64,000 nt of DNA from an uncultured Spartobacteria bacterium (lineage in GTDB: Bacteria; Verrucomicrobiota; Verrucomicrobiia; Chthoniobacterales; Chthoniobacteraceae): NCBI GenBank assembly GCA_903882875.1, contig CAIRYQ010000124.1, forward strand, positions 1 to 64,000. Direction: 5' to 3'. Shown here piece by piece: positions 18,924 to 39,209 of the stretch (the stretch's first letter is position 1; each line of letters opens with the position of its first letter). A model generated the notes under the pieces. It made no database searches and was not told the origin of the DNA. It saw nothing but the letters and a program-made list of their open reading frames with translations. Both the position numbers and the translations under genes were made by a program.

Positions 18924-21900
18924 CTACCAGGGCGAGAACCGCTTGTTGGCGATGATCCGGAAGCGATAGGCAGTCTCTAGGGACTGGGTCTGCGCGTTGA
19001 TCTGGCTCGTGGCAGGCTGGTAGGTGGACTGGAAGCGCGGATCCTGCGGGTCGAGGTAACGTTCGATGGTTGTCTGCCCGCGGAGTTCAGACATGATCTG
19101 ATCCCGGCTTTCATCAAACGTGCGGTAGTAGGCGACCGCACCTCTTGGGTCTCCGGTATAAGCCCGTTGCCGCAGCGTCTGCACACGGTAATGCACGGTG
19201 AACGTGTTCGACTTGGTCGTGATCCGGGGATAGAGATCCGCATAAGGCTTTTCACGGACATTGTCACCGGTAAGCTGGTTTCTCGCCCAGAATGCCTGAA
19301 TCTGGGCTTCGCCAGCCGTGTATGTGACCGTCGAGCCGTCGAATGTCTGGCCCTTTGGATAGAGGAAACGCTCACAAATCTGTGAGGCGCACTTGAAAAA
19401 GCCGCCATTCCTGTTGTTTGTATATTGTGCAAAGAAAGCATCGAATGCCTTGAGTGTCTCCTCGCGATCCACCAGATAGCGAAGATTCTGTTGGTTATCC
19501 GTGCCCTTGTATTTGAACACCTTGTTCCCATCCACTAATGTCTGCGGGATGGCAGTGACACGAAGCGGTTGCAGGGCTGCGCGGAGGGCGGTCGTCCGCT
19601 TGAGGTAGCTGAACGGCACAATCGGGTAATTCAGGTTCACTTTGCCTGCGGTGGAAAAGGGTTCGCTAATGGCATAGGGCTGGACAACGGGCATGTTAAA
19701 GAGATCCAGCAACAGATGATCCGGCGGTGTCTTCGCCCCAGGATGGTTTGCACCCGCGGGATTTGGACAAAAGAGAAGCGTTTTCCAGCCCGCATTGGCC
19801 CAAGAACTTTGTGGTGCAGGGAGCGATCCGAACATGACCGGCCCTGGAACTTGGCGGTTCGGCGAAAAATAGGTATCCAGCGGGGAATCATAAAGCCATG
19901 TCGAAAAGTAGGGTTCGACGAAGTTGTAAATCTTATTGACGGCGTCGTACCAGTATTGGGCGACATTCCCTTCGTCAGCCTTCCCTGCAAATGCCCCATC
20001 TGGGAAGTTGCCGATTCCAGTGTCAAAATCCGCCGCTCCCCCGTCACTTCGGACTGCAACAAAAGGGATCTTTCCATTGGCGTCTGTAAATGGCGGGAGA
20101 TCCGGGCCGTAGTTGGTTGAGTATTTTGAGCCGCCGAGGGGAAAGAAGGCGCCTGTTGCCGGCGAGGCCGTTGTCTCGGGCAATTCGGCATAGACGGTCG
20201 GGTCAAAATAAAAGCCCCCATAACCGACGCGGAGTTTCTGCACGAGATGCTTGGTGGCACTCTGGTATTCCGGATGGGGTTGGAGGGTGCTGACGGTTTG
20301 TTGGAGGGCGGTGATCCGTACGTCTGCATTCGCGGGGACGGCTCCATTGACGCCGCCGCCGACAATCAGGCTGCGGATCGTGTCTCCCGGCTGGAGGATC
20401 TGCAGATAGCGGTTGGTGTAATTTAAGCCATCCCCGGTTTGGTTACCATACTGGTCCAACAACGGCCACGGAGTCCCTGAATTTTGCTGGGACCATGCTA
20501 TCCTGGTTGGCAGGTAATAGGGCATCGCCCAACCGCCCAGCATCCCATACTTTGAAACAAAGGTGCCCCAGGGAGTCCATGAGGAAGCGTTGGTGGCGTT
20601 ATAGCCATTGACCCGATTGTCAAATCCGCCTACGTCCTGGCGGTAGGAAGGCGTCGGCAATGGCCAACTGCCGCCATCGGGATAGGTCAGTGACAATTTC
20701 TGAATCTGTACGTTATGGCCGACCTGGTCCTGATACTTGACAAACATATCCATCTCGCCACCTTTGAAGGTGAACGACTTTTCGGTCCATCCGACACGGA
20801 TACCATCCATTACCGGGTCGGTGCAGGGAGTCTGGAAGACGTAATAATTTGATTTGGCGGGAGTGTTGCCGATGGAGTCAATGATCGTATGGTAGAAGCC
20901 CTCGGTGCCTCCGAAATTACGCCCACCCCAGGTGTCGCCCGATGTCTTGGTAAAGTTGTTTGTGAGCAAGCCCGTGGAGACCCCGCCCCCAATTCCCAAT
21001 GGGATTGCAGCGCCCGTTGTCGGTGTCTGGATTGCGAAGGCCCCATTGATCTGCAACTGGTGTACATAGACGCCCTTGTTTGGATCCGGGTAGTTATAGC
21101 GCGGCATCAGACCGTTGACGGCATTGACATCCGCGGGTGTAGTATCCACCAGGCTGATGTTTGCAAAATTGTCCACCGGTGCATATCCTTGCATCGGGTT
21201 GTAAGTTCCAAAGATCATGAATGCCCTCACAAGCTGGCCTTTCCACGTTCTGACATTCGCCTTGGCCCAAGCAGACTTGAGCAGCGAGTTATTATCAGTG
21301 TACGATGGAGCCACTGGAATCTTCGCGAAATCGTAAATCACGACTTCATTGGGGCTTTTTGGAGAACGCGCCGATCCGTTGCCCGGCAAATCCTTCTTTT
21401 CTAGGTCGCTGCCCGGCAGCGGTTCACAGATATAACCTGCATGGTAAAATACTATTGATGCTTCCGATACCGTCGGATAGCGCCCCAGGCCTGACACCTG
21501 CGTGCCATTGAACGTGGCACGGGTGGGGATGACGAGGGCATGCGGTGCGTAGCGGGCGGCCGTCTTGAGCTGATTGTTCACGAGCGAGTTGACTTTCGTC
21601 AATTGGTCGATCGTCTTGTCACGCGAAGCGTCTTTCTGATTAATCGTCCGGATATAATCGAAAATTTCAACGAGGATCTGATCCATGCCTCCGGATCCTC
21701 CGGCATATTTTTGGCCAAAGCTCCCGCCGAAACCGGGGACTTGTGAGGTCGTGAGCCCATGCAGGTAGTTAAAGATTTGCTGATTGCGAGCAAGGGTGAA
21801 ATCCGTCGTCGGGCTGTAAGGATCCTGGCGGTCGAAAATGAATTCCCCCTGCCGGGTGAGTGTCTGGACGGCGGTATTTGCGTTGCCGCCGATGGTTGAG

Positions 21901-23618: not shown

Positions 23619-23646
23619 AACAAGTGAGGTTATATCAAGCGGGGGA

Positions 23647-24756
23647 TTACTTCGACTGGTTGCGGCTCCATTTTGCGCCGCGGATGCTTACGTTCGTGGA
23701 AAAGATACGGTAGGAAACACGCTGGGATGCGAGTATCGCTGCCAGCTTGGAGAGGTCGCCGTCGTCAGGCGCAGCGGTCGAGGGATCATCCTCGAGGACG
23801 GCAGGATTTCGGAAGAGGGAGGAATAGCTGACACCGAGGTTCGGATCGGTTCCAAACTGATCCTGCAGTTTCTGAGCGGAAGGCTCATCAATGGCAATCA
23901 TGGCCACCTGAACCACCGGCGGGAGCTGGTTATGCGGATTCAGGATCGGATCGGTGACGGTGTTGTTTGTGGAGTCGTAGCTGTAGAGCGGAGCAAGTAT
24001 CGGCGGGGTCCTGGAGCCGTTCTGTGTCATCCAGAGTTGTTCGTCGCTTTTTGAAAGGCGTGGCAAAACGACGAGTGCCACAATATTCTCCGCAAGCACG
24101 CGGGTCGGGCGAGTCGTTGCGGTGACGAGCGGGGCGAACCAAGCCGCCCCTTGGGAAAAAGTCGGTGCGGCGGCAACCTGCTGATACTGATAGGTCATCA
24201 ACTGCTCGGAAGGCTGCCTCAATTCCATAAGGCGGAACCGCGTCCTGGCGGGAACCAGGTTTTGCAGGAACTGAGGCAATGAATCGGCATCGGAGCCGAT
24301 TTCCACGAAGTATCCCCAAAGATTGATGAGGTGATCGAGCACACCATAAGTCTTCTGGTCACTCACGTAGCCATTTGGTGCATGGAAGAACACGCTGTGT
24401 CCGGGACGGGTGTAGCCATTCGTTCCGGTGCCGCCGGTCAACGTATTGGTGACACCGGAGACGAAGCGCAATTCGGACGACCGCTGATAGCCGATCGGGG
24501 GGGCGCCCGGCTTCGCATTTGGTGCATACTGGTAGTCCCAATAGGTGTTCAGCGTCGCCTGGGCGAGACGTCGTGTCATGGATTCAAATGCCACGCGTGC
24601 ACCCTGAAATTGTTCCACTTTTGACGAGGTCCCTTTCATGAGGCGCTGGGTTTGATCCGTCATGGAGAGAAGGATGCCCATCAGGATTACGACAATAGTG
24701 GCCGCGACAAGGACCTCGACGAGCGTGAATCCGGTAATTTGGCGGCGCATTTTCAT
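23647..24756 (-). CDS. Verru_Chthon cassette protein C (prepilin-like)
   Basis: A 369-residue protein. I chose the ATG at 24756 because it overlaps the B stop as ATGA (4 bases) and gives a proper prepilin leader: M-K-M-R-R-Q-I-T-G then F-T-L-V-E-V-L-V-A. An upstream ATG at 24780 would add eight residues inside the B gene. The type IV prepilin cleavage/methylation site (Gly before Phe, Glu+5) is intact, followed by a hydrophobic helix and a stalk with Q-F-Q-G-A-R-V-A-F-E-S-M-T-R-R. The globular part has no known enzyme motifs. It needs a prepilin peptidase from elsewhere in the genome; none is in the window. Confidence 0.85.
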   Translation of the reverse strand: MKMRRQITGFTLVEVLVAATIVVILMGILLSMTDQTQRLMKGTSSKVEQFQGARVAFESMTRRLAQATLNTYWDYQYAPNAKPGAPPIGYQRSSELRFVSGVTNTLTGGTGTNGYTRPGHSVFFHAPNGYVSDQKTYGVLDHLINLWGYFVEIGSDADSLPQFLQNLVPARTRFRLMELRQPSEQLMTYQYQQVAAAPTFSQGAAWFAPLVTATTRPTRVLAENIVALVVLPRLSKSDEQLWMTQNGSRTPPILAPLYSYDSTNNTVTDPILNPHNQLPPVVQVAMIAIDEPSAQKLQDQFGTDPNLGVSYSSLFRNPAVLEDDPSTAAPDDGDLSKLAAILASQRVSYRIFSTNVSIRGAKWSRNQSK

Positions 24757-25379
24757 ATTCCCTGGTTGTTGCCCAGACATGCGGAATACGTCAGTATCGT
24801 CACGCCTGTGGTGGTCTGGAAAAGGTTTCTGGAGGGGATATTTGGATCACTGGCAGAACCGGCCACGATGGGAATGGTCTGGTTGCCCGGGTTGCGCGCG
24901 ATTTGGATGGTGATCTGGGCCACATTGGATCCCGTTTCGTTGATGGTCGGCAGGATGGCCCGCGGTATGATGCGGATATTGACGTGATAAACGATCTGCT
25001 GTCGTTCCAGGGCGCTCGGCGTGGTGCCCTGCAAAATCACTTCCTCTCCTTGTTCGTCAAAATAGCGGAGCTTGGGGGCCTGCACTATGGGTGCGCGGAA
25101 ACTGAAGTTCGGGGGGCAGTAGCCGGTTGCGTCGGTGGGGAGGTGGGTGATGTCAATGAGCGTGGAAAATTCCGCCTCCTCCATGTCGTGCATGAGACGT
25201 TGTGCGATCTGGGCCGTCACCGAGGCGTCCATCGCCTTTCGGAAGTTTGACATTCCTGCCGGCATCAGTCCCAGCAGGGCGATCAAGGCCACAGCGAGAA
25301 TACTGATGGCGATCGCGATTTCCACCAAAGTGAATCCTGCTTTTTTTCCGTGACTGGAACTGAGGGGGAGGGGAGTCAT
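24753..25379 (-). CDS. Verru_Chthon cassette protein B (prepilin-like)
   Basis: A 208-residue protein starting at ATG 25379. The leader (H-G-K-K-A-G) is followed by F-T-L-V-E-I-A-I-A-I-S-I-L-A-V-A, an intact prepilin cleavage site and helix (about 15-38). The stalk (R-K-A-M-D-A-S-V-T-A-Q-I-A-Q-R-L-M-H-D-M) and small size match cassette protein B. It is the first gene of the B-C-A unit, with translational overlap into C. Upstream lies 1.6 kb of intergenic DNA; I found no cassette protein D on either side. Confidence 0.85.
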   Translation of the reverse strand: MTPLPLSSSHGKKAGFTLVEIAIAISILAVALIALLGLMPAGMSNFRKAMDASVTAQIAQRLMHDMEEAEFSTLIDITHLPTDATGYCPPNFSFRAPIVQAPKLRYFDEQGEEVILQGTTPSALERQQIVYHVNIRIIPRAILPTINETGSNVAQITIQIARNPGNQTIPIVAGSASDPNIPSRNLFQTTTGVTILTYSACLGNNQGI

Positions 25380-25693
25380 CGTGGAGTTACAATGTGTTTA
25401 CGTCAATATGCGGAGTTTCACGGCCATGCAAGGGATTTGTTGTTTTTTCTGTCGGTTCGTGTCTGTGCATCGGCATCGCCCTTGGCATGCCCCTTTTTGG
25501 AAAGTCTGCCTTCAAAATTTCCGCTGAACTGAGGCGGCGAGGCACGGGGTATGGGGAGATGTTGAATACGGCTTGCCGGTTATTCCCGATGAACCCTCTG
25601 CAAAATACACCGGCCCGCAGATGACGCGGATATTTTGACCACGGATGACGCGCGTAACACGGATGGTGGTCAGAGGGAGACGCTTTCATCCGC

Positions 25694-25768
25694 GATTATG
25701 CCTTTGACGCAACTTTCCTCCGAAAGCTCACCGAGACGCTCTCTGTAAATCGCATCAAGGGCATAATC
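25694..25768. repeat. 17-bp inverted repeat
   Basis: Left arm 25694-25710 (gattatgcctttgacgc) and right arm 25752-25768 are reverse complements with two mismatches, separated by 41 bases. It is 315 bases upstream of the cassette B start. It could be a large stem-loop or a paired binding site. Confidence 0.5.
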
Positions 25769-25777
25769 ACGATTCAA

Positions 25778-26247
25778 TTACCCTCTCGTGACGGCGGCCT
25801 GCAGGCTTGCTGCGAGATTCAGGCCGCGGATTCGCCCGAGGCAGATGCCGGCGTTGGTGGCAATGCCGAGCGCATCCGTGATGCTCGCCTTGGCATGCGC
25901 CACCGCCTCCCGCTTTTCCTTGATGCCGCCGAGGCCGAGCAGTTCCGCCACCTGCATTGCTTCACCGAGGTGCATCCTCAGGATCACCCATGCATGCAGC
26001 TCGCAACGGCTGATTACCCCGGATCGCCGATCAAAAAAACGCGCACCCACTTTCCGAAATCCGCAAAGACGGTGTGGAGCGCGGCTTTGCCGATTGCGCC
26101 GACATGATTCACGCGGAGGCCCAGCGCGAGCTGCACCACCGCCATAATCGGCCCGTTGCCGCCGAGTTTCAAGAACGGCGGCACGAATTCAAAGTTCGCG
26201 CTCACGCCGGACGCTGCCGTGATGTGGCACGACCATTCGCCATCGTT
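25778..26247 (-). pseudogene. Possible decayed ORF with a poly-T frameshift
   Basis: Two overlapping minus-strand frames look protein-like and join at a 7-T run (26033-26039 as A on the plus strand). The first, open from 26247, reads W-S-C-H-I-T-A-A-S-G-V-S-A-N-F-E-F-V-P-P and later A-A-L-H-T-V-F-A-D-F-G-K-W-V-R-V-F, and stops at TAA near 25998-26020. In the next frame D-R-R-S-G-V-I-S-R-C-E-L-H-A-W-V-I-L-R continues to a stop at 25778. There is no good start codon (a GTG at 26205 only) and an in-frame TGA at 26248-26250. I do not recognise the family. It may be the remnant of a gene once next to the cassette, but chance cannot be excluded. Confidence 0.3.
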
Positions 26248-26581
26248 TCAAACCGTTCGTTTCGCCGGCGAAAGCCTCGCTTTGACGGCATGGGGAATCG
26301 TATCCGCGAAGCAGGTGAATCCGGTGAAAGCCTTTGGTTTTGCGCTTCCGGAGGCCGCCGCCCGAAGCAGCCGGAGGGTCTGTTTTGGGAGGCTGTCTGG
26401 CATCCTCTTCGACGTAGCTCGTGTGCGGTGCTGGTTTCGAGACATCATGACGGGAAATTTTTATTGCCGTGTCTTTGTGCGGAAATCCCGGATCCTCTGC
26501 GATTGGATTTCGCCGCGCTATGGAGCGCACTTGAAGTCATCGCCACTGGTTGGTCGAATTGGCAAGGGCGTCAAAAACAGG

Positions 26582-26614
26582 GCGCGCGCACGCGCGCGCG
26601 TGCGCATGCGCGCG
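26582..26614. repeat. Alternating purine-pyrimidine (Z-DNA-prone) tract
   Basis: 33 consecutive bases alternate G/A with C/T, mostly GC steps with single CA, GT and AT steps. Such tracts readily adopt Z-form under negative supercoiling. It lies about 400 bases upstream of the giant repeat-protein start. Confidence 0.7.
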
Positions 26615-26657
26615 AGAGAACGCATGAGATTTCCCCTTCGAGACTGTGTAAGAAGTC

Positions 26658-26732
26658 GAATTTGGAAGCCAAGAAGCCAGGAAAAAAGGGCGGGTCAATT
26701 TCTCCCTTCCTGGGTTCATGGCTTCCAAATTC
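26658..26732. repeat. 26-bp inverted repeat (long stem-loop)
   Basis: Left arm 26658-26683 (gaatttggaagcc..., 26 bases) matches the reverse complement of 26707-26732 at 24 of 26 positions, around a 23-base loop that has an extra aggg/ccct pairing. It is by far the strongest palindrome in this intergenic region. It may be a repetitive palindromic element, a transcription attenuator for the giant gene 280 bases downstream, or a small mobile-element remnant. Confidence 0.7.
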
Positions 26733-27008
26733 ATCCCGCTGCTGCATCCACAGCGCGCATCGGCCGTCATTTTTCACAGCCTCTTACGAGTGTTGCGGAC
26801 GCGGTCCCGACCGCCTTTCCCGAATTTTTTGGAAATGGAGGGCCCGCAATTTGTTTTCAGGCCGCGAATTTTTCCTGAATAATGGGTCGAGGCTCTCGTC
26901 CAACATGGAATGCGACTCCAATTCTGAACGTGCGAATTTCTGTTTCCCGTTGGCAAAATAACCCGTCGGCGGTGCGGATAATTCGTTGCATTGGGTGGGG
27001 ACGCACGT

Positions 27009-30000
27009 ATGGTCATTGTCAATCCACTGATGAAGAGCCCCTGCATTTCCCCCCGCAGAATTTCCAGCGCAAAAAGACGGCCGGTGCCTAGACGCGATGG
27101 GAGGTCGGCGCTTTCCGGCACCATCGCTTTGCTTGCCGTAGCGATCCTGTCCTGCGCGAGCACGCCGCGGGCGCATGCGACCACCTACTACTGGGACGGC
27201 GACGGCTCGGCTCCGCTGAACGATGCGACCACCGGGAACGGACTCGGTGGCACGGGGACTTGGGATACCGCTTCCTCAAAATGGTGGGATCCCAATAACC
27301 CCAACGTGGACGGACTTTGGGGAAATGCCGCTTACAGCATCGCAGTTTTCATCGGAACACCGGGCACGGTCTCATTGGGAAGCGGTCTCCAAACCAATGG
27401 GCTGAGTTTTTTTTCCAATGGCTTCAACCTCACCGGCGGGACGCTTACGCTCGTTGGAACGGCGCCGACCATTTATGTCGCCCCGGCGCAGACGGCGACC
27501 ATCACCAGCACAATCGCGGATTCGGGTGCCGCCGGACTTTACAAATCCGGCTTGGGCACCCTGGTGCTGAATGGCGTGAACACGTACACGGGTCCGACGA
27601 CGGTGGGCTTCGGCTCGCTGCTCGTGAACGGCTCGACGAGTGCAACGAGCGCTGTGGCTGTCGGCGATCCCCTGAATCCCGGTGGCGGCGTGCTGGGCGG
27701 TACCGGGACAATCGGCGGTGCCGTCACGGTGAACGGTGTCGGGGGCATCAGCCTCGCCAATGGCTCGATCGGCACTCTGACGCTGGGTAACACGCTCACC
27801 GCCACCGGCACCGCCGGGAACAATCTTTTCACTTTTGACATGGGATCGGGAGGGGCCGGGACCGATAGGATCAATGTTGTCGGAAGTGGAACCACAGGCG
27901 TTGTCGTGACCAATGCCGGGGCGCCGGTGATCGTATTGAACCAAATCGGCGGGGTAGCTGCGCCAATCACTAGCGGCACTTACAATCTGATTTCCGTTAC
28001 CGGAGCCTCCGCAACGATGGCCGCGGCGGCAAGGTTCAGCCTTGCGACCAGCCGGGCTTTTGGTGAGCTATACTCCTTGCAACTCGACAGCGCCACCAGC
28101 AAGATATTGCAGGTGGTTGTCACAACGGGCAACCCCGGCCCCATTAGTGGTGCCTCGTTTTGGTCGGGAACCGCCAGCAACAATCAATGGAACGTGTCTT
28201 CCAGTTGGAAGACTGATGCCACTTCCAACACAGCCGGAGCCATCCCCGGATACCTGACCAATGTCACATTTTACACGACGAATCCGGCTCCTGTTCTCGG
28301 AAATAGCACGCTGAATCAGGATTTTGACATCAACAGTCTCACCTTCAGCGCCACGGCGACTTCCGGCGTGAATATTCTGGCCGGGGTGGGGAAGATGCTG
28401 ACGATCGAGGCTGCGGCCGTGAACGGCAACACCGCAGGAAACGGCATTACCCTGAAGAATTCATCCGGAACGCAAACAATAACTGCGCCCGTGGGGTTGG
28501 CCTCGAGCCAGACATGGACTGTGGCCGCCGGCGCCACGTTGGGGGTCAATGGTGTCATCAGCGACTTTGGTGCCGGAAACGGCCTCACCTTGGCTGGCGG
28601 GGGCACATTGACGCTCACGGCTCCAAACACCTTTTCCGGTGGCGTCATTCTCAATAGCGGCAAACTGATCATCAATAATCCCACGGCCTTGGGGGCTTCG
28701 GCGGGCGTGTTCACGATCAATGGCGGAACGATTGACAACACCACCGGAGCGTTCTTGGGCCTGCAAAACGACAACCCGGTCACCATCGGGGGGAGTTTCG
28801 CCTTCAGCACGACCGGCGGTTCGTCCCTCAACAACCTGAACCTTGGCCTTGGCGCAGTGAGCCTCAATGGCAGCCGCACGATCACGCTGAATCCGCTGAA
28901 TGCGCTCAATCCGGCTACACTGACATTTGGCGGTGTGGTGACCAATACGACGAACGGCACAATCACGACCACGGTGAACGGGCCTGGCAATACGCTGGCA
29001 ATTGGCTCGTTTGCATTGAATAGCGGAGCCGCCTCCGTGGTGGATATTTTCAATGGGAACGGGAACATCACCATGAACGGGCCGGTGAGCAATGGCGGCA
29101 GTGCGGCGAATGGGCTGACATACAGCGGGACGGGCACGCTGACCTTGCTGGGAGCGAATAACTACACGGGTGCCACAACGGTGTCCTCCGGCGCGTTGAT
29201 TGTGAACGGTTCCATCGGGGCGTCCAGCGCGGTGAATATCTCAGGCGGCGTCCTCGCCGGCACCGGAACGATTAATGGCCCGGTCACGTTGAGCGGGACG
29301 GGTGGCATCAATCTGCCCTTAGGGACAGCAGGCACAGGCACCGGGATAATGACGCTGGGTGGCAACCTCAGCATCACCGGTGCTGCTGGCGCCAACAAGC
29401 TTGCGTTTGATTTGGGGGCGGGGACCTCCCAGACGGACGAAATCATTGTCGCCGGCGTCACGTCCGTCACCAATTCGGCGGCGATCAGTTTCAATCAGAT
29501 CGGCCAGGCCCAGGGATCGCGCGTCAATGCGGGCACCTACACACTCATCGCGGCATCCAATACGCTCAATCTTTCCAATTACACCTTGATCACGCACACG
29601 GCGTTCGGATCGACCTTTTCGCTTGGACTTGATGGTACCCTCAAACAGTTGCAGGTGACGGTTACCTCGTCCGCTCCGGGCCCCTCGGTCGCCTACTGGG
29701 CGGGCAGTGCGGGCAACAACTGGAGCACCGCCACGAACTGGAGGACTGACGCCACTTCCAACATCAACACTTCGGGCGCTCCTGCATACAACTCCGACGT
29801 CTTCTTCAACACGGTAACCCCGACCGCACTGAATCTCACGAACACCGTGCTCGGGGCTGATTCGGACATCAACAGTCTCACCTTCAGTTCTGCCGCGAGC
29901 ACGGGCGTCACCATCGGTGGCAACAATACGCTCACGATCGAGGCCACGCTGACCGCCCTGAACGCCGCCAACAGCGGCATCATTGTCAACGCCCCCGTCT

Positions 30001-33000
30001 CGCCGATCACCGGTGTCACCACACACACCATTTCTGCAAATGTGGCCCTTGCCGAAAGCCAGACATGGACCGTGAATCAAGGCACGGCGCTCGCCGTCAC
30101 CGGGAGTGTCACCGATTACGGTGCAGGATATACCCTCACCAAAGCGGGGGATGGCACCCTGAAACTGTTCGGAGCCACCATCCCCACGCTTGTTACTGCA
30201 GTCAAAGCCGGTGCGTTGATCATCAGCACCACAGGGGCTTCCGCGAACGATACCTCGACATTCAATATCACCGGTTCCACGGTGCGTACCAGCAATGGCA
30301 GTTCAAACGGCGGTGTGCTTGTCCTCGAGAACACGACCGGCACGGCCTCGCCCACGCCCTTTGCGGGCACCATCACCCTGAGCGGCTTCGGGCCCAATTT
30401 CATCGGCACGTCCAATCCCGGCGGCACGCTGGTGAGCGTCAGAAACAATACCCTTTCTGGTCTCGTCAGCACGAATGACAACGTCACTCTTCCCAATGTG
30501 AACACCGGGATCGTTTCAGCCAACGGCCTGCTCACATTTTCGGGTTCGCTTGCCATCGGGAGAGGCACCCAGACTTTTTTCGGCGCGTATAATTCGAGCA
30601 GCGGTGTGGGCAACTATGCGATCACCGGCAGCCTTCTGGACTCGGGTAACGCAACAATTCCCATTCCCGGCATCCTGGTAAAAATGGGGCCGGGAACGCT
30701 GACTCTCAATCCATCGAATTCCAGCGGATATTCCGGAACGATCCGGGTGTCGGGTGGCACGGTCCGCATTCTCTCGGGCACGGCATTGGGTTCCGACACA
30801 AATACAGGGGCCGTAGCGGGCACCGCCTCTGCGGTGCTGGACATGAACGGCGGAGCCTTGGAAGCGTTGTCGGATTCGGGGGCTATCAATGCGAACGTCT
30901 ATGGACGGGCGAATTCCACCTTCTTTGTGGATCATGCCCTCGTTAGCACGCTTTCCGTCGGCACGGCCATCAATGGAACGACGACTTTTGGGCAGTTCAC
31001 TTTTGCTGCGGGCACCACCCTCACACTGACCGGTCGGGACGGCTACGGCGTGACCTTTATGCCCGGTTCCAATCCGGCGACTCTCAGTGCGTTGATTGAC
31101 CCCGCGTCGCAGGCGAATAACTCCGCGTTTACGAACAACCTCAACGGACTCCTCACCCTTACTGGCGATATCTGGGGACAAACCAACACCACTTCCCGGA
31201 CGATGACGATTTCGGGCAGTGGGGACACGCTGATTACCGGCTATATCCTGGCCACGGGATCGGATCACTTTCTGACCAAGTCCGGCCAGGGGACGCTGAC
31301 GCTGAACGCATCGAACCCCACGGCGGCCAGCAGCACTTACACGGGTGGCACGAACATCAGCGGCGGCACGCTGGCCGTCACGAACATCAAGACGCTGCTT
31401 AACCAGAACAGCGTAACCACGACCGGAGCTAACAACGCGATCAACCTGAATGGTGGTTCGCTGAGCTACCTCGGCACACTCAGCACCGGTGCGGGCGAGA
31501 CATCCCCGACGGTGATCAATCTTTCCGGCACCACCGGAGCAGGTATCATTCTGGCGAATCAGGCGGGCTCGGTGCCCACGGCATTGACACTCAGCAGCGG
31601 AGTCTCTGCGGGGGGCGCAGGCGTAAAGACCCTCTTCCTCGGTGGCGCTGCTTCCTCCAACCTGATCAACACGGTTAGCGGCGTGATTCAGAACAACTCC
31701 TCCACGAACCTGACCTCGCTGACAAAGGTGGGGACGGATACCTGGCTCTACTCGCCGAGCGCGGCCAGCTACGGTACGGGAGCGTATGGCGTGAATGTGC
31801 AGACCACCGTTACGGGACTCGGAGCGCCCCAATCAAATACGATCACGGTGGCAAGCGCATCGAACATTCGGACCGGGCAAGTAGTCACGACGGGCGGCAC
31901 CGGCGTGCCTGTGGCCGCGGTGGTGACCAACATCAACGGCACCACAATCACTCTCAGCAGCAACATTGGCGCGCAGATTGCGAGCGGAACTTCGATTACC
32001 TTTGGAGCCATCACAAACTTCACCGGATCGGTGACGGTCGGCGGCGGCCTCCTGCAAGTGAAGCCGACTGCGGCGAGCGGGACGAGCGGTGGCAACCTGT
32101 TCACCACGGCGCAGAATCTGATCTTCAACACGGACGCGCTGACGACCAATGGATCCGCGGGTGGAACTTTTGAACTCGTCACTCCCGCAGTAACGATGAC
32201 TGGCAACCTGCTTCAGACCATGGGAGCGCTTCAGTTGTCCGCCGGGGCCGGCAAACTGCAGGTGGATGCCGGGAATGGCGGATTCAGCAACATATTGACC
32301 TTCAACGCCTACACTACGCGGACGGCGGGAGCGGTGGTGGACTTCGCGCCGGCGGCCAGTCTGGCGGGCATTCAGTTCTCAGTGGTCCCGACGGCGGTTT
32401 CGAGCGGCGTGTTGAGCGGATCGTATTTCACCAGTTCGACCGGTGCGATAGACTTTGTAGCCACGCCTGCTGCGAATACCCCTGTTGCCGCACTCGGTTC
32501 GACGACTGCGCTGCCTTTGACTGGAGCACTCGGCACGGCAAACTATCGCGTCAATGCCAACACAACCACCACTGGAGCGGATGTGGCCAATACCATTCGC
32601 ATCATATCCGGGGCCAACCTGACCCTTGGTGCAAATCTCACGATCACCTCCACAAACGCGAATAACCTCGGCGGCATCCTTCACGACAATGCGGGAGGCG
32701 CTTCCAAAATCAGCAGTACGTCAACAGCCACGATCTCCACAGTGACGGCCAATCAGGAACTCCTGATCACCACAGGAGGCATAAACAGCAATTTGGCAAA
32801 CGTGTTGCAGACCCCCAGCACTGCACTTCTGACGATCTCCTCTGTCTTGGCCAACGGCTCCGGCGGTGTGACCAAGGCAGGCAATGGTCTCCTCGTCCTC
32901 AGCGGCCAGAATACGTTCACCGGGGCGCTGACTATTGATGAGGGCGGCCTGCGCGCCTCCGGCACAAACACCCAGACACTGGGCGCTCCGGCTGCAACCA

Positions 33001-36000
33001 CTGTGGACATCCTGCGCCAGGGGGCCTCACTTGATGTCTTCGGAGCGGGTGCAAGCACTTCGCCTTACACTGGAGGCACTTCGCTCCCGACGCTCATCGC
33101 TGCACCGATCAGCGGTGCAGGCAGCATCACCAGCACCGCATCCGGCTCGCAGGCGATCCAGCTCGGCACCAGCGCCAGCACTGGCAGCGGTGTCTTCTCG
33201 GGGATCATTTCCGATGGTTCGGGCACCATGACGGTGATCCGCAACGGTGCCGCCGGAACGGAGGTTCTGACCGGCCTGAACACTTACACCGGGCCGACGG
33301 TGCTCAGCGGCGGGGCAATCCTTCAGGCAAACGTTCTTGCCAACGGCAGCACGGCTTCTTCCATCGGCGCGTCCTCGAATGCCGCCGGCAATCTTGTGCT
33401 CAACGGCGGCACGCTGCTTTACCAGGGTGAAAATGCGACGGTGTACTCGCCCACGCAGACGCCTTCAGTCTCGACGGATCGTCTCTTCACGCTCACAGCG
33501 AACGGCGGGGTGATTGACTCCTCTGGCACCTATGGGAACCAGCAGGTCGGCACGACCACGCCGAATAATGCGGCACTTGTCTTCAGCAATAGCGGACAGG
33601 TCGCTTTCAGCGCCTCGGGCATCAGCCCAACACTGACCCTTCAAGGCAGTTCCACAGGTGACAATCAGTTCAATCCCTGGTTGACCAACCCAGCCTCGGG
33701 AATTCTCTCAATTAACAAGACTGGCGTGGGCGTTTGGGTGCTGAACAACATCCAGAACAACTACACCGGCCCCACGACGATTAACGCGGGCGTCCTCCGG
33801 GCATTCACAGACGCGACACAGGCAACCGGAGTCACTCTGCCGGTTACGTCGAATCTTACGTTCAATGGCGGTGTCCTCGAGTCCACCGGGAATTTCTCAC
33901 GCACCCTCGGTACGTTGGCCGGCAATGTGCAATGGAAGGCGACCTTGACGGGCAATGGGTCGGGTGGTTTCGCTGCGGCTTCATCCAATTTGACGGTCAC
34001 CTTCGGCGGCAGTCCGGTATGGGGCGCGGCACCTTTCCTCGACACGGGATCCCTGATATTGAATTCCACCACCGCGATGGCTGAGGTGCAGATTGTGAGT
34101 GGCTTTGGGATTAATTCAGGTGCGACCGCCGCACTCACTGCCACCACCGCGAACGGGAGCGCGACCGTGAACCTGACGGGCGTCTCGACAACCGCAGGGC
34201 TGACTATCGGACAGGTGGTAACAAGTCCGTTCCTTCCAAACGGGACCACATTTACCATTGCTGCTATCAACAGCACCACGCAATTTACCTTGAGCACGGG
34301 CACGGGGGTGTCGGCTGGAACCAACATATCGGTCTCTGTCGCCGCGGGAGGAGTCCGCCAGATCATCGTCAATGACAACCCCAACACGAATACTGACCTT
34401 GCGACCATCACCGGCAGCATTAGCGGGACAGGAAGCCTGAGCAAAGCCGGTGCGGGTGTCCTCCAGCTCTTCGGTGCGAATACCTATACCGGCAGCACGG
34501 CGGTCACAGCTGGAACCTTGGTGGCGAATACGCTGGGACTCAGCACGGCATCAGCTACGGGCACAAGCGTCGGAAGCAACGTCGGGGGCAATACTCTCAC
34601 CCAGGCTCTGACCCTCGGAAATGGAACGACAGGCGCAGCCATCCTCCAGTATGTCGGCACGGGTGAGACCAGTGATCGCCTGATTCAGGTGAATACCACG
34701 ACTGGGAGCGATCAAATCTATGCCGACGGGACTGGGCCGCTCGTGCTCACCAATGTGGTGAACAACACGAGCCTCGTCGGAGCAAGGACGCTTTTCTTGC
34801 GCGGCTCCAATACGCAGCCAAATGTGCTTGGCCTCCCTGGGGCCACCACCAGCAGCCCCGTGGGCCTCGCGGACGGATCTGGCACAAGCCCCTTGAGCAT
34901 CACCATTGATGGCAGTGCCACCTGGGTCCTTGCTGGAAACAATACCTTCACCGGATCCGTCACCCCGAACTATGCACCGTTGGGGCTAGGCAGCAGCGCA
35001 GCGCTCCGTGATGGAAAACTCGTGCTGGGTGGCAGCTTGCAGTCTGTCTTTGCCTACGGAGGAGACCATATCCTTTATAGTGACAATCCGGCTGTCACTC
35101 AGATTCAACTTGGCGGCAATACCTATTTCGCCGGCAACTACAGCCTTAGCTTCTTGGGAACGCTCGCATTGACCGGATCTGTAAGTAGCGCGAACAACAT
35201 CATCAGCGGCAAAACCCTGACCTTCTCATCCGTGACAGAAACTCCGCCGACTGGCGCCGTCACTTGGACCATCAACGGTTCGGGCAATACCGCCGTCACT
35301 GGTGTGATTGCAGACAACCCTGGCGCGACCCTCAATCTGGTCTTCAATCCCCCGAGCAGCTCGAACACACTCACGCTGTCCGGTGCAAGCACCTACAAAG
35401 GGACCACCCAGCTCCTGAACGCCACAACCATCCTTAACGGGAGCGGCGGCCTTTCACCCAACACCGCGCTCACGCTTGGAAATGCCACCACCTCGGCGAC
35501 CCTTCAGCTTGGCGACAGTTCGGGACCCGTCAACGTGACGATTGGATCGCTCGCAGGCGGCAGCGCTGGGGCAAATCAGATAATCAATGGCAATACATTG
35601 AATGCCGTCGCCTCCACGTTGACACTCAATACTGCGGTGAACACCACGCTCGATCCTAACGTCTCGGTCGGCATCAGCCCGTCCGTTTCCGGATTGCTGA
35701 CGGATCCGAGAAATAACATTGCCTTGGTAAAGACGGGAACTAATGCTACTTTGACCGTCGCCAATCCGACCTACTACACTGGCGGCACCTTTGTGGGCAC
35801 TCCGAATGGCCCCGATGGGGGCACTTTGGCGCTAGTCAGTGCCGGAACATTGGGGATAGGTCAGATTTCACCTGGCCCCGTGACCGTCTATGCCGGAACC
35901 CTGAAGCTGGACGACCCGTTGAATCCCCCGGGAACGCAGTATATTACCAACCTGACGGTCGGCGGCGGTGGATCTGGCACCACTGCAAACGTGATTGTTG

Positions 36001-39000
36001 GCACCACCCTGACTCTCGGTGATTACACGCATCCGGGCAACATCATATACGATGCGACCAACAATCCCAACCCCGCCACCATCTCCGCAGGAACCTATGG
36101 CGGAGCTCTCAATCTCAATCCGAACGGGACCACAATCACCGTCGGCAGTTCCACTGCCGGATCGGGTGCCGGGCTGCCGGATCTGACCATCAGTGTTGGT
36201 CTTGTGGACCAAGGCGGGCCTCTCATAAAAGCCGGTCTTGGAACTTTGCAGATCATTTCGAATTCTGCCACATCCTTCAACCAACCGGTGTTCGTGAATG
36301 CCGGCAGCTTGATTCTGAACGGCAGCAGTGGAACCCCCGTATTTGGACCCGGCGTGCCGGTTACAGTGGGGACTGCGACGAATGGAGCAACATTGGACCT
36401 CGGCGGATCGGGCTACACAACTTTCAACAATCTGAGCCTCTATAGCAACTCGCATTTGGTCTTCAATCTCGGACCGAACAATGTGAATTATGATCAGCTT
36501 GGAGCGCCCGGTAACCCCATTTCTATCATTCTAAATCCCGCAGGACCTCTTTCGACAGGGTTGAAAGTGGACTTGAAGGCGCTTGCGGGTTTTGGAACAG
36601 GCACTCCAAGCGGGGTCAACTTTCAATATATCTTGTTGGATGAAATTGGCACAGACTTGAGCGTTCGTCCGTTCAGCCTGGGTTCGACCCCGGGTGGTTT
36701 TGGATTCAACCTGCAAACACTTCAAATCGGAGCCCCCAGTAATAATGAGTGGCAATTGCTCCTCACCCTCTCTCCGGCGACCACGGATTTTTACTGGAAA
36801 GGCGGGGCAAGTGTAAATTGGAACAATGGTGGGAACTGGAGTAACTCCAATGGATCGCCGGTTCTTAATGCCGTTCCGAGCAGTGTGAACAACGTTTATT
36901 TTGCAACCTCATCTGGTCCGGCCAATCAGTCAAATACGATTGTGGACGTCTCCATATCGGTAAACAATCTCACCATTTCCGATCCTGTAGTGGTAACCAT
37001 AAAGGGGGTGAACGGAACTCTCCTCACCATCTACGGCGACCTTTTGATTGATACAACAGCCGGAACCAGCGGACCGGTAACTTTTGGTTCCGCCACGGCG
37101 GGCAGCGCGCTCTCCCTGGGAGTGGCAAGCAATCAGGAGACATGGACGAACAATGCGAAAAACGGCTCGGGCAGTCTGATCATTCTGGGCTCGGTTTCCA
37201 GCCAGGGGACCAGCGGAACCCAGATTCTCACTTTCGCCGGTGCAAGCCATACCACTCTGGCAGGCAGTATCAATGATGGTGGACTCGGTGGGCAACTCGA
37301 ACTGATCAAGACAGATGCCGGCACCCTGTCGCTCACGAATGCTTCAAACACTTACACGGGTGGAACCAAGATTCAGCAAGGCATGCTGGAGTTTGCTTCG
37401 GCATCCACATCTTCTGCATTGGGAACCGGAAAGATAGCTTTCACTGGGGATGCGACTTTAAGGTGGCTTTCCGCGACTGGCGGCGACATTTCCAGCCAAC
37501 TGGTGATCACCGATACCGGGTCGTCCTTGTTCCATTATACTGCCACGCTCGACACGAACGGCAAAAACGTGACCTTCGCGACTCCCCTCCAGAACGGAAG
37601 CCCGACGAACGGCGCATTGACGGTAACCGGGGCGGGAACCCTTTTCCTGAATGCGGTCAATAACTTTACTGCGGGTTACACAGGAGGAACCAATATTTCT
37701 GTCGCCACCTTGGAATTCGCACACCTCGGGATTCCGACCACAGGTAGTCTTACTTTCACCGCGGGTTCCCTCGTGGGGAGTTCCGTATTGCAGTGGGGGC
37801 CGGGGAACACCGACGACATTTCCAGCCTCTACAATGTGCAAATCGCGAACAACGTGATCGCGACTCTTGACACTAACAACAACAATGTGATCCTGCTCAA
37901 CCCGATCCTTTCCACAACGGGTGCCTTGGCGAAGACAGGCAATGGAACACTGAGCTTGTATAACGCGGGTACGCCCGGAACTTACCCCGGCGGGACTTTC
38001 ATCAATGGTGGCACCTTGGAGTTTCTCACAGGGGCGCTGCCCACGGCTGGAGGTGTCACGTTCACGGGAAACTCAACTTTGAGGTGGGCGACTAATTTCT
38101 CGAATCCTACCAATGGCGACGATGTCTCCAGCATAGCCGGTGGACTGGTTATCCAGTCTTCGGTTGTGGCAACCTTGGATACCAATGGCAACAACGTGAC
38201 ATTTGCCAGTCCGATCACAAATTCCGGAACCCTCAACAAGATCAATGCCGGAACGCTCACGCTCGGTGCGGATAACTCTGCGAACTATACGGGCTTGACA
38301 CTCCTTGCAGGCGGCACTGTGGAATTCGTCCCAAACGGTCTTGGGTCACTGACTGCCGCGGCCAGAACCATTACATTCACGGGCAACTCGACCTTGAGGT
38401 GGGGGACTGCGGACAGCACGGTCGTCACGAATCCGTTTAATACCGATGACCTTTCCAGCCGGCTGAACATCGCGAACAGCAGTGCGATCACGGCGACTCT
38501 CGACACCAACGGCAATAACGTGAACTTTGCCAACCCGATCAATGGGGCAGTTGGAGCTTCCACGGGTAACTTGTTCAAGACGGGAGCCGGAACCCTCACC
38601 ATGCAGGCTTCCAGCCCGAATTTTCAGGGGGCGGTTACCGTTGATAGCGGAACACTCGCAGTGAGCGGCAGCCTGAGCGGCACGACTGCCGTGAATGTGG
38701 CGTTAGGGGCGACGTTGCAATTCTCCGGTGGGGCCAATTCCATCAAATCTACTGCAGCCGTCGTGATGGGCATTCCTAGTTCGACAAGTTCGACGGCTGC
38801 TGCAACGCTCCTGACGAATAACACCAACCAGCAAATGGGTGTGTTCACGCTGTCGGGAAATGCGGTTATTGATTTCAATCTTTCAGGCCATACCGGTGCA
38901 GTGTCGCTGAAATTTGCGGACAGCTCTGCCGTTAGTTCAAGCTGGAATGGAACCCTGAGCATTGATAACTGGGTGAGCAACGGGGATCATCTGTTCTTTG

Positions 39001-39209
39001 GCAATGGCACTGGAACCGGACTTACCCAGGCTCAGTTGAACATGATTACGTTTTACTCCGACGGCGGTTCTTCCTCGCTTGGAACCGCGACCTTCGCCGC
39101 TGGCGGTGAGGTCGTCCCAGTGCCTGAACCGGCCGGCCTGCTGACTCTGCTAGGCGGTGCGGGGCTCCTGTTGGGGCTTCGCCGCCGCCAGCAGGTGAAC
39201 CGGGTCTGA
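27009..39209 (+). CDS. Giant PATR (autotransporter-associated beta strand repeat) protein with PEP-CTERM signal
   Basis: A 4066-residue exported surface protein. I chose ATG 27009 (ggtgggg 8 bases upstream) over TTG 26991 and ATG 27030. A long basic leader is followed by a hydrophobic segment ending T-P-R-A-H-A. The body is a beta-helix of many PATR units of the form G-x-G-T-L-x-L-x-G-x-N-T-Y-T-G-x-T-x-V-x-x-G-x-L. Four modules start with W-x-G-x-A-x-N-x-W (near residues 60, 383, 895, 3259). Two similar 70-residue modules (about 1597-1667, 2372-2447) look inserted. Four copies of a roughly 105-residue unit with L-D-T-N-G-N-N-V lie near 3460-3845. The C-terminus (about 4036-4066) has V-P-E-P-A, a hydrophobic helix and R-R-R, a PEP-CTERM tail, instead of an autotransporter barrel. 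Anchoring would need an exosortase from elsewhere. It neighbours the pseudopilin cassette. Confidence 0.88.
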   Translation: MVIVNPLMKSPCISPRRISSAKRRPVPRRDGRSALSGTIALLAVAILSCASTPRAHATTYYWDGDGSAPLNDATTGNGLGGTGTWDTASSKWWDPNNPNVDGLWGNAAYSIAVFIGTPGTVSLGSGLQTNGLSFFSNGFNLTGGTLTLVGTAPTIYVAPAQTATITSTIADSGAAGLYKSGLGTLVLNGVNTYTGPTTVGFGSLLVNGSTSATSAVAVGDPLNPGGGVLGGTGTIGGAVTVNGVGGISLANGSIGTLTLGNTLTATGTAGNNLFTFDMGSGGAGTDRINVVGSGTTGVVVTNAGAPVIVLNQIGGVAAPITSGTYNLISVTGASATMAAAARFSLATSRAFGELYSLQLDSATSKILQVVVTTGNPGPISGASFWSGTASNNQWNVSSSWKTDATSNTAGAIPGYLTNVTFYTTNPAPVLGNSTLNQDFDINSLTFSATATSGVNILAGVGKMLTIEAAAVNGNTAGNGITLKNSSGTQTITAPVGLASSQTWTVAAGATLGVNGVISDFGAGNGLTLAGGGTLTLTAPNTFSGGVILNSGKLIINNPTALGASAGVFTINGGTIDNTTGAFLGLQNDNPVTIGGSFAFSTTGGSSLNNLNLGLGAVSLNGSRTITLNPLNALNPATLTFGGVVTNTTNGTITTTVNGPGNTLAIGSFALNSGAASVVDIFNGNGNITMNGPVSNGGSAANGLTYSGTGTLTLLGANNYTGATTVSSGALIVNGSIGASSAVNISGGVLAGTGTINGPVTLSGTGGINLPLGTAGTGTGIMTLGGNLSITGAAGANKLAFDLGAGTSQTDEIIVAGVTSVTNSAAISFNQIGQAQGSRVNAGTYTLIAASNTLNLSNYTLITHTAFGSTFSLGLDGTLKQLQVTVTSSAPGPSVAYWAGSAGNNWSTATNWRTDATSNINTSGAPAYNSDVFFNTVTPTALNLTNTVLGADSDINSLTFSSAASTGVTIGGNNTLTIEATLTALNAANSGIIVNAPVSPITGVTTHTISANVALAESQTWTVNQGTALAVTGSVTDYGAGYTLTKAGDGTLKLFGATIPTLVTAVKAGALIISTTGASANDTSTFNITGSTVRTSNGSSNGGVLVLENTTGTASPTPFAGTITLSGFGPNFIGTSNPGGTLVSVRNNTLSGLVSTNDNVTLPNVNTGIVSANGLLTFSGSLAIGRGTQTFFGAYNSSSGVGNYAITGSLLDSGNATIPIPGILVKMGPGTLTLNPSNSSGYSGTIRVSGGTVRILSGTALGSDTNTGAVAGTASAVLDMNGGALEALSDSGAINANVYGRANSTFFVDHALVSTLSVGTAINGTTTFGQFTFAAGTTLTLTGRDGYGVTFMPGSNPATLSALIDPASQANNSAFTNNLNGLLTLTGDIWGQTNTTSRTMTISGSGDTLITGYILATGSDHFLTKSGQGTLTLNASNPTAASSTYTGGTNISGGTLAVTNIKTLLNQNSVTTTGANNAINLNGGSLSYLGTLSTGAGETSPTVINLSGTTGAGIILANQAGSVPTALTLSSGVSAGGAGVKTLFLGGAASSNLINTVSGVIQNNSSTNLTSLTKVGTDTWLYSPSAASYGTGAYGVNVQTTVTGLGAPQSNTITVASASNIRTGQVVTTGGTGVPVAAVVTNINGTTITLSSNIGAQIASGTSITFGAITNFTGSVTVGGGLLQVKPTAASGTSGGNLFTTAQNLIFNTDALTTNGSAGGTFELVTPAVTMTGNLLQTMGALQLSAGAGKLQVDAGNGGFSNILTFNAYTTRTAGAVVDFAPAASLAGIQFSVVPTAVSSGVLSGSYFTSSTGAIDFVATPAANTPVAALGSTTALPLTGALGTANYRVNANTTTTGADVANTIRIISGANLTLGANLTITSTNANNLGGILHDNAGGASKISSTSTATISTVTANQELLITTGGINSNLANVLQTPSTALLTISSVLANGSGGVTKAGNGLLVLSGQNTFTGALTIDEGGLRASGTNTQTLGAPAATTVDILRQGASLDVFGAGASTSPYTGGTSLPTLIAAPISGAGSITSTASGSQAIQLGTSASTGSGVFSGIISDGSGTMTVIRNGAAGTEVLTGLNTYTGPTVLSGGAILQANVLANGSTASSIGASSNAAGNLVLNGGTLLYQGENATVYSPTQTPSVSTDRLFTLTANGGVIDSSGTYGNQQVGTTTPNNAALVFSNSGQVAFSASGISPTLTLQGSSTGDNQFNPWLTNPASGILSINKTGVGVWVLNNIQNNYTGPTTINAGVLRAFTDATQATGVTLPVTSNLTFNGGVLESTGNFSRTLGTLAGNVQWKATLTGNGSGGFAAASSNLTVTFGGSPVWGAAPFLDTGSLILNSTTAMAEVQIVSGFGINSGATAALTATTANGSATVNLTGVSTTAGLTIGQVVTSPFLPNGTTFTIAAINSTTQFTLSTGTGVSAGTNISVSVAAGGVRQIIVNDNPNTNTDLATITGSISGTGSLSKAGAGVLQLFGANTYTGSTAVTAGTLVANTLGLSTASATGTSVGSNVGGNTLTQALTLGNGTTGAAILQYVGTGETSDRLIQVNTTTGSDQIYADGTGPLVLTNVVNNTSLVGARTLFLRGSNTQPNVLGLPGATTSSPVGLADGSGTSPLSITIDGSATWVLAGNNTFTGSVTPNYAPLGLGSSAALRDGKLVLGGSLQSVFAYGGDHILYSDNPAVTQIQLGGNTYFAGNYSLSFLGTLALTGSVSSANNIISGKTLTFSSVTETPPTGAVTWTINGSGNTAVTGVIADNPGATLNLVFNPPSSSNTLTLSGASTYKGTTQLLNATTILNGSGGLSPNTALTLGNATTSATLQLGDSSGPVNVTIGSLAGGSAGANQIINGNTLNAVASTLTLNTAVNTTLDPNVSVGISPSVSGLLTDPRNNIALVKTGTNATLTVANPTYYTGGTFVGTPNGPDGGTLALVSAGTLGIGQISPGPVTVYAGTLKLDDPLNPPGTQYITNLTVGGGGSGTTANVIVGTTLTLGDYTHPGNIIYDATNNPNPATISAGTYGGALNLNPNGTTITVGSSTAGSGAGLPDLTISVGLVDQGGPLIKAGLGTLQIISNSATSFNQPVFVNAGSLILNGSSGTPVFGPGVPVTVGTATNGATLDLGGSGYTTFNNLSLYSNSHLVFNLGPNNVNYDQLGAPGNPISIILNPAGPLSTGLKVDLKALAGFGTGTPSGVNFQYILLDEIGTDLSVRPFSLGSTPGGFGFNLQTLQIGAPSNNEWQLLLTLSPATTDFYWKGGASVNWNNGGNWSNSNGSPVLNAVPSSVNNVYFATSSGPANQSNTIVDVSISVNNLTISDPVVVTIKGVNGTLLTIYGDLLIDTTAGTSGPVTFGSATAGSALSLGVASNQETWTNNAKNGSGSLIILGSVSSQGTSGTQILTFAGASHTTLAGSINDGGLGGQLELIKTDAGTLSLTNASNTYTGGTKIQQGMLEFASASTSSALGTGKIAFTGDATLRWLSATGGDISSQLVITDTGSSLFHYTATLDTNGKNVTFATPLQNGSPTNGALTVTGAGTLFLNAVNNFTAGYTGGTNISVATLEFAHLGIPTTGSLTFTAGSLVGSSVLQWGPGNTDDISSLYNVQIANNVIATLDTNNNNVILLNPILSTTGALAKTGNGTLSLYNAGTPGTYPGGTFINGGTLEFLTGALPTAGGVTFTGNSTLRWATNFSNPTNGDDVSSIAGGLVIQSSVVATLDTNGNNVTFASPITNSGTLNKINAGTLTLGADNSANYTGLTLLAGGTVEFVPNGLGSLTAAARTITFTGNSTLRWGTADSTVVTNPFNTDDLSSRLNIANSSAITATLDTNGNNVNFANPINGAVGASTGNLFKTGAGTLTMQASSPNFQGAVTVDSGTLAVSGSLSGTTAVNVALGATLQFSGGANSIKSTAAVVMGIPSSTSSTAAATLLTNNTNQQMGVFTLSGNAVIDFNLSGHTGAVSLKFADSSAVSSSWNGTLSIDNWVSNGDHLFFGNGTGTGLTQAQLNMITFYSDGGSSSLGTATFAAGGEVVPVPEPAGLLTLLGGAGLLLGLRRRQQVNRV

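Follow-up and report, generated by a model that had tools for sequence, protein, structure and literature searches.

A Verru_Chthon gene cassette with predicted minor-pseudopilin folds, its giant PATR/PEP-CTERM neighbor and the decayed kinase gene between them in a Spartobacteria genome

In the genome of an uncultured Spartobacteria bacterium, a cassette of pseudopilin-like genes lies next to, and divergent from, a gene for a giant PATR-repeat protein with a PEP-CTERM tail. The question raised by this locus is whether the two units make up a single surface-display system. The original prediction was that they could, given that the giant protein would need some export route other than an autotransporter barrel and that the two units appeared to share an intergenic region of 1.6 kb. 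We analyzed a stretch of 64,000 nucleotides that contains the locus (referred to as the window throughout) and compared it with cassettes from other genomes. The features relevant to the question are as follows.

18924..23618, minus strand: Verru_Chthon cassette protein A, a predicted giant GspK-like minor pseudopilin (1564 aa; TIGR02600 at 806.9 bits and the predicted structure of a homologue)
23647..24780, minus strand: Verru_Chthon cassette protein C, a predicted GspJ-like minor pseudopilin (377 aa; TIGR02599 at 309.3 bits and its own predicted structure)
24753..25379, minus strand: Verru_Chthon cassette protein B, a predicted GspI/PilV-like minor pseudopilin with a GFTLVE leader (208 aa; TIGR02598 at 47.8 bits, a B-family HMM, and XpsI and PilV matches)
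25790..26412, minus strand: decayed ketohexokinase (PfkB-type) pseudogene (tblastn with the intact kinase of a same-genus genome)
26991..39209, plus strand: giant PATR-repeat protein with a PEP-CTERM tail and no barrel (up to 4072 aa; PF12951, TIGR02601 and a PEP-CTERM profile)

The cassette spans positions 18924-25379 on the minus strand with the gene order B-C-A, which is a common core order among cassettes, and it is separated from the giant gene by a gap of 1611 bp. A pseudopilin cassette beside a giant PATR/PEP-CTERM protein is what the window contains, and the coordinates first given for them were right. When scored against the NCBIfam models, proteins A and C pass the respective cut-offs of 332.3 and 256.5 bits, while protein B falls just under its cut-off of 51.4 bits. 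Protein B does occupy the right position in the cassette, and it matches a local B-family HMM, made from 48 B-type proteins, with an E value of 2.4e-31. Its score against the NCBIfam GspI model TIGR01707 is 21.2 bits, below the cut-off of 44.35, which indicates a likeness to GspI and not membership of that family. A search with a D-type HMM revealed no D gene (TIGR02596), the canonical fourth gene, near the window cassette, and D is likewise missing from many A/B/C-type cassettes elsewhere in the DNA available. A lone full-length GspH-like D gene, with A, B and C not nearby, is found on contig C105 of the same genome (L208:9489-10535, minus strand) and could supply in trans the D protein that the cassette lacks. 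Contig C80 carries a remnant of a second cassette A (L145:6094-7089, plus strand), comprising the frameshifted C-terminal third of the gene and adjoining a sulfatase-type gene; no PATR match was found within the surrounding 18.8 kb. An A-HMM match in a PATR gene on contig C44 proved to be spurious.

The NCBIfam entries state no function for the Verru_Chthon families, and we compared predicted structures of cassette proteins with solved structures. For protein A, the model is that of a 1077-aa homologue which is 38% identical to the window protein (47 sequences, pLDDT 85.8, pTM 0.87). The three best matches in a structure search with this model are all of the GspK type: 5vtm_X (GspK/XcpX type; Z 10.8, 237 of 259 residues aligned), 3ci0_K (Z 10.6, 254 of 280 residues) and 6utu_I (Z 10.4, 224 of 247 residues). 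The next match is unrelated, with a Z score of 4.7. This identity came from structure alone, since an A profile searched against the sequences of solved structures produced nothing useful, with a single match at E 1.1. Foldseek alone returned no significant match to the model, with GspK having the top probability among the matches shown. Protein C of the window was itself modeled (51 sequences, pLDDT 89.1), and its model matches GspJ/XcpW/EpsJ at Z scores of 9.4-10.5 in eight solved entries and one integrative pseudopilus model. The score is just as high for a type IV-like pilin of Thermus (Z 10.5), and thus the fold of C by itself does not tell a GspJ apart from a type IV minor pilin. At the level of families, GspH is matched by 31 of 32 D members (best 2.9e-13) and is the best match of D after its own family, and B members show weak matches, at E 0.01 or better, to PilV (15/33), XpsI (14/33) and GspI (4/33).

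Given that A matches GspK, C matches GspJ, the D family matches GspH and the B family weakly matches GspI and PilV, the cassette most probably encodes a set of minor pseudopilins of the tip type, in which GspK is unusually large. In Pseudomonas aeruginosa, GspH, GspI, GspJ and GspK build the tip of the pseudopilus, with GspK on top (PMC6211770), and by analogy the cassette may act in secretion. A search of the open literature, with most subscription journals outside its coverage, found no paper that uses the Verru_Chthon family names and none that joins "minor pseudopilin" with "PEP-CTERM". The cassette family and PEP-CTERM sorting were thus already known, and it is the GspK and GspJ folds of A and C and the cassette-PATR statistics described below that were not found in the literature so covered.

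Could the cassette serve a type IV pilus, in attachment, motility or polysaccharide capture, instead of protein export? Minor pilins and pseudopilins have common folds, as the Thermus match to C illustrates; PilV is matched by members of the B family; and cassettes are found in sugar loci. We also count in favor of this reading that minor-pilin tip complexes exist in type IVa pili (PMC7541494). However, A specifically matches GspK, a tip protein of type II secretion, and the best match of D outside its own family is GspH. We consider a role in a type IV pilus to be doubtful, albeit one of the better alternatives.

The giant gene begins at TTG 26991 or at ATG 27009 or 27030, and its product has a signal peptide as judged by inspection. 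It contains 14-15 PATR repeats (15 stretches of PF12951, E 3.9e-40; 14 stretches of TIGR02601). Its tail, VPEPAGLLTLLGGAGLLLGLRRR, passes the NCBIfam PEP-CTERM profile (22.3 bits against a cut-off of 16) and lies just under the cut-off of Pfam PF07589 (19.4 against 20.7). A C-terminal beta-barrel (PF03797) was not found with Pfam at E values of up to 0.1, where PATR is the only family detected, and the expectation that this protein lacks an autotransporter barrel is borne out. The same genome encodes at least one exosortase (TIGR02602, over the cut-off, on contig C94) and three secretins over the cut-off. Elsewhere in this genome, two PATR loci (L206 on contig C98 and L207 on contig C50) do encode autotransporter barrels, and so the genome seems to use both kinds of PATR protein. 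A 970-aa N-terminal segment of the giant protein was searched for in nine congener genomes; no match at 1e-15 was observed in seven of them, and the matches in the other two are only at the level of the repeats (36-38%).

The closest orthologous cassette is that of a same-genus genome, whose A protein is 67-75% identical to that of the window. In that cassette, no giant gene is found next to B; instead, an intact ketohexokinase gene (L183:3164-4303, minus strand; Pfam Khk, E 4.9e-63) lies upstream of B and runs in the direction of the cassette. A tblastn search with this kinase revealed its remnant in the window. What is left of the gene is split into two pieces, 49% and 43% identical to the intact kinase and read in different frames; it contains an in-frame stop and lacks its middle part, and the matching DNA is approximately 69% identical to that of the intact gene. 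The divergent units are indeed separated by about 1.6 kb, but this region is not empty: a dead gene makes up part of it. Synteny with the same-genus genome is found on both sides of the cassette, and the glycosyltransferase and Agl23-like genes beyond A are syntenic at approximately 80%. The comparison stops 196 bp past the kinase, where the same-genus contig ends in a genome that is 92% complete. The simplest reading of these sequences is that the cassette and the giant gene became neighbors secondarily.

A FastTree phylogeny of A proteins groups the window with Chthoniobacter flavus (L065) and lake Spartobacteria (L064, L067). No PATR neighbor was seen, in the DNA available, for the cassettes of these relatives or for those of G332, G297 and G296. 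In the DNA covered, the pairing of cassette and giant is not conserved among the closest relatives, one of which has the kinase instead. Within the genus of the window, there is also a cassette whose A gene is followed immediately, on the same strand, by a PATR/PEP-CTERM gene of 2053 aa (L192:3330-9488, minus strand).

The idea of a display system implies that cassettes and PATR proteins co-occur more often than by chance, and a comparison across genomes supports this. A contig scan of bacterial and archaeal genomes yielded 77 cassette loci, each taken together with its flanks (10 kb at most), and a PATR frame is present in 25 of them. As a controlled test, the positions of cassettes and PATR clusters were mapped in five whole Verrucomicrobiota genomes, and the expected number of coincidences was calculated as a Poisson expectation from density over genome length. 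Counting only the strongest PATR repeats, ignoring contig ends and including some cassettes that lie close together and one, of 61, from a genome without PATR, we observed a PATR cluster within 10 kb of 28 of the 61 cassettes against 6.3 expected, and within 6 kb of 19 cassettes against 4.4 expected. The number observed at 10 kb is roughly four times the Poisson expectation, with p below 0.04 in each of the five genomes (3.7e-6, 0.018, 1.2e-4, 0.036 and 0.0036).

This association is real but partial. In the 6.6-Mb genome LW23, at least 17 cassettes score over the cut-off (among them loci L074, L083, L092, L096, L111, L112, L122 and L126), and a PATR search of it at 1e-7 gave no match; of the 135 PATR clusters listed, only 18 (approximately 13%) have a cassette within 6 kb, and most PATR genes have none; and many cassettes reside in sugar loci. 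The neighbors of cassettes include GH5, GH2 and polysaccharide lyase genes, as well as genes judged by inspection to be of the LacI/AraC and MFS types. At L056, L097, L098, L111 and other loci, large glycosidases or lyases and apparent sugar regulators or transporters adjoin the cassettes, with junctions that sometimes overlap or measure 4-30 bp. The notion that every cassette sits beside secreted cargo was unsupported, as a crude count found signal peptides in 36% of same-strand genes at rank 1 and in 33% further out. The association with PATR is strongest in lineages other than that of the window. Since it is significant in general, a functional link could exist at the window too. Nevertheless, with a kinase at the orthologous position, no close congener relative of the giant's N-terminus and the PATR-free cassettes of LW23, we regard a dedicated surface-display system as unlikely for the window pair.

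Orientation and gene order bear on the nature of the association. In an unbiased set of direct PATR/PEP-CTERM neighbors, 10 of 11 run in the direction of the cassette, and the divergent layout of the window is the minority one. Cassettes in which A comes first have a PATR/PEP-CTERM gene as a direct neighbor in six of nine cases, compared with 6 of 58 for other gene orders (p 0.0006). In several genomes, the same-strand neighbor immediately upstream of A is such a gene, as in Chthoniobacter flavus Ellin428 and Verrucomicrobium sp. BvORR034, where A-B-C-D follow it; the gaps measure 4-267 bp in L118, L121 and L128. At L130:5461-11847 (minus strand), a PATR/PEP-CTERM protein and A occupy one stop-free frame of 2129 aa, each with its own terminal signals, which could be a real fusion, a lost stop or a sequencing error. 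On the A tree, PATR-adjacent states are scattered, changing 13 times where shuffled labels give 20 changes on average; a single PATR-adjacent clade of A was rejected on this basis, the scatter being nonetheless less than random.

One way to accommodate these patterns is that Verrucomicrobiota cassettes are exchangeable, dedicated tip adaptors with which one shared machine exports co-encoded cargo, the A-first type being used for PATR/PEP-CTERM giants and the window being perhaps a rearranged member. We put this forward tentatively, as about as doubtful as the pilus reading. If true, it would couple type II-like export to exosortase sorting in a new surface-display route.

Less likely still is a dedicated pair at the window itself, in which the cassette tip would carry the giant protein through a secretin, an exosortase would finish or anchor it, and the divergent units would be one display system. 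The excess of cassettes near PATR clusters, the upstream same-strand genes at A-first cassettes, the shared 2129-aa frame and the prevailing co-orientation all speak for such a pair. Against it stand the divergent layout of the window with a pseudogene in between, the clade relatives whose cassettes lack a PATR neighbor in the available DNA, and the lack of conservation of the giant within the genus. Equally improbable is a passive association in all lineages, whereby surface-protein genes and cassettes share islands or move together without a common mechanism: the small fraction of PATR clusters near cassettes, the commonness of cassettes without PATR and the scatter on the A tree would fit it, but the strong co-orientation, the short gaps upstream of A and the enrichment in A-first cassettes would not.

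The explanation that we favor, and hold to be probable by a modest measure when taken as a whole, is that of a minor-pseudopilin tip set that works with a shared machine and became the neighbor of the giant gene secondarily. A would be a giant GspK, C a GspJ and B a GspI-like protein, while the GspH-like D would either have been lost or be provided in trans. The role envisaged for the set, on the analogy of the type II tip, is to prime and cap a pseudopilus or pilus that a shared machine, for type II secretion or type IV pili, would build. The sets of Verrucomicrobiota would be exchangeable tips in varied neighborhoods, often sugar-utilization loci and, in some lineages, PATR/PEP-CTERM giants. 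At the window, a cassette beside a sugar kinase gene would have been left with the giant gene as its nearest intact neighbor once the kinase decayed. The giant itself would most simply be a Sec-exported, beta-helical surface protein that is sorted by the exosortase of the genome without need of the cassette. We count against this explanation the significant association across genomes, the PATR/PEP-CTERM neighbor at L192, the contig end just past the same-genus kinase and the fact that, in a crude signal-peptide count, cassettes in general show no excess of secreted neighbors.

A four-gene family with placeholder names, which reaches tens of copies in some genomes, thereby gains a testable structural identity, that of a giant GspK with GspJ-, GspI- and GspH-like tip proteins. 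This bears on two questions: how a single secretion machine can deal with many substrates, and how barrel-less giant PEP-CTERM proteins get to the surface. The A-first operons, in which a PATR/PEP-CTERM gene is followed by A-B-C-D, offer a clean genetic place for probing the link. The window also illustrates that gene neighborhood alone may mislead, as a decayed gene lies inside what appeared to be a shared promoter region.

Compared with known systems, the locus resembles the Verru_Chthon cassette as defined by TIGR02600 (A), TIGR02598 (B), TIGR02599 (C) and TIGR02596 (D) in its B-C-A core and in the passing scores of A and C, B scoring just under its cut-off, and differs from it in having no D. 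The type II secretion tip GspH-GspI-GspJ-GspK (XcpU-V-W-X; PDB 3ci0, 5vtm and 6utu) is similar in the predicted folds of A and C and in the matches of the D and B families to GspH and GspI/PilV models. The two differ in length, the cassette A proteins having about 1080-1750 aa and the GspK chains used here roughly 250-280 residues. They also differ in that the cassettes, known here from genes and predicted folds, occur as numerous paralogues within a genome, dispersed over different neighborhoods. As in PEP-CTERM/exosortase sorting (PMC1569441), the tail of the giant scores over the cut-off and the genome encodes an exosortase, although the passenger in this case is a PATR protein of 4072 aa. 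Type V autotransporters with a PATR passenger (PF12951 and PF03797) have the same passenger repeat but, unlike the giant, a beta-barrel. Finally, a polysaccharide locus has been described from a Verrucomicrobiota genome with an expanded set of 67 PulG-like pseudopilins, one of which is over-expressed on alginate (PMC13274419). Many pseudopilin paralogues are common to that expansion and to the cassettes, the former being PulG-like and the latter sets of the GspK/J/I/H type.
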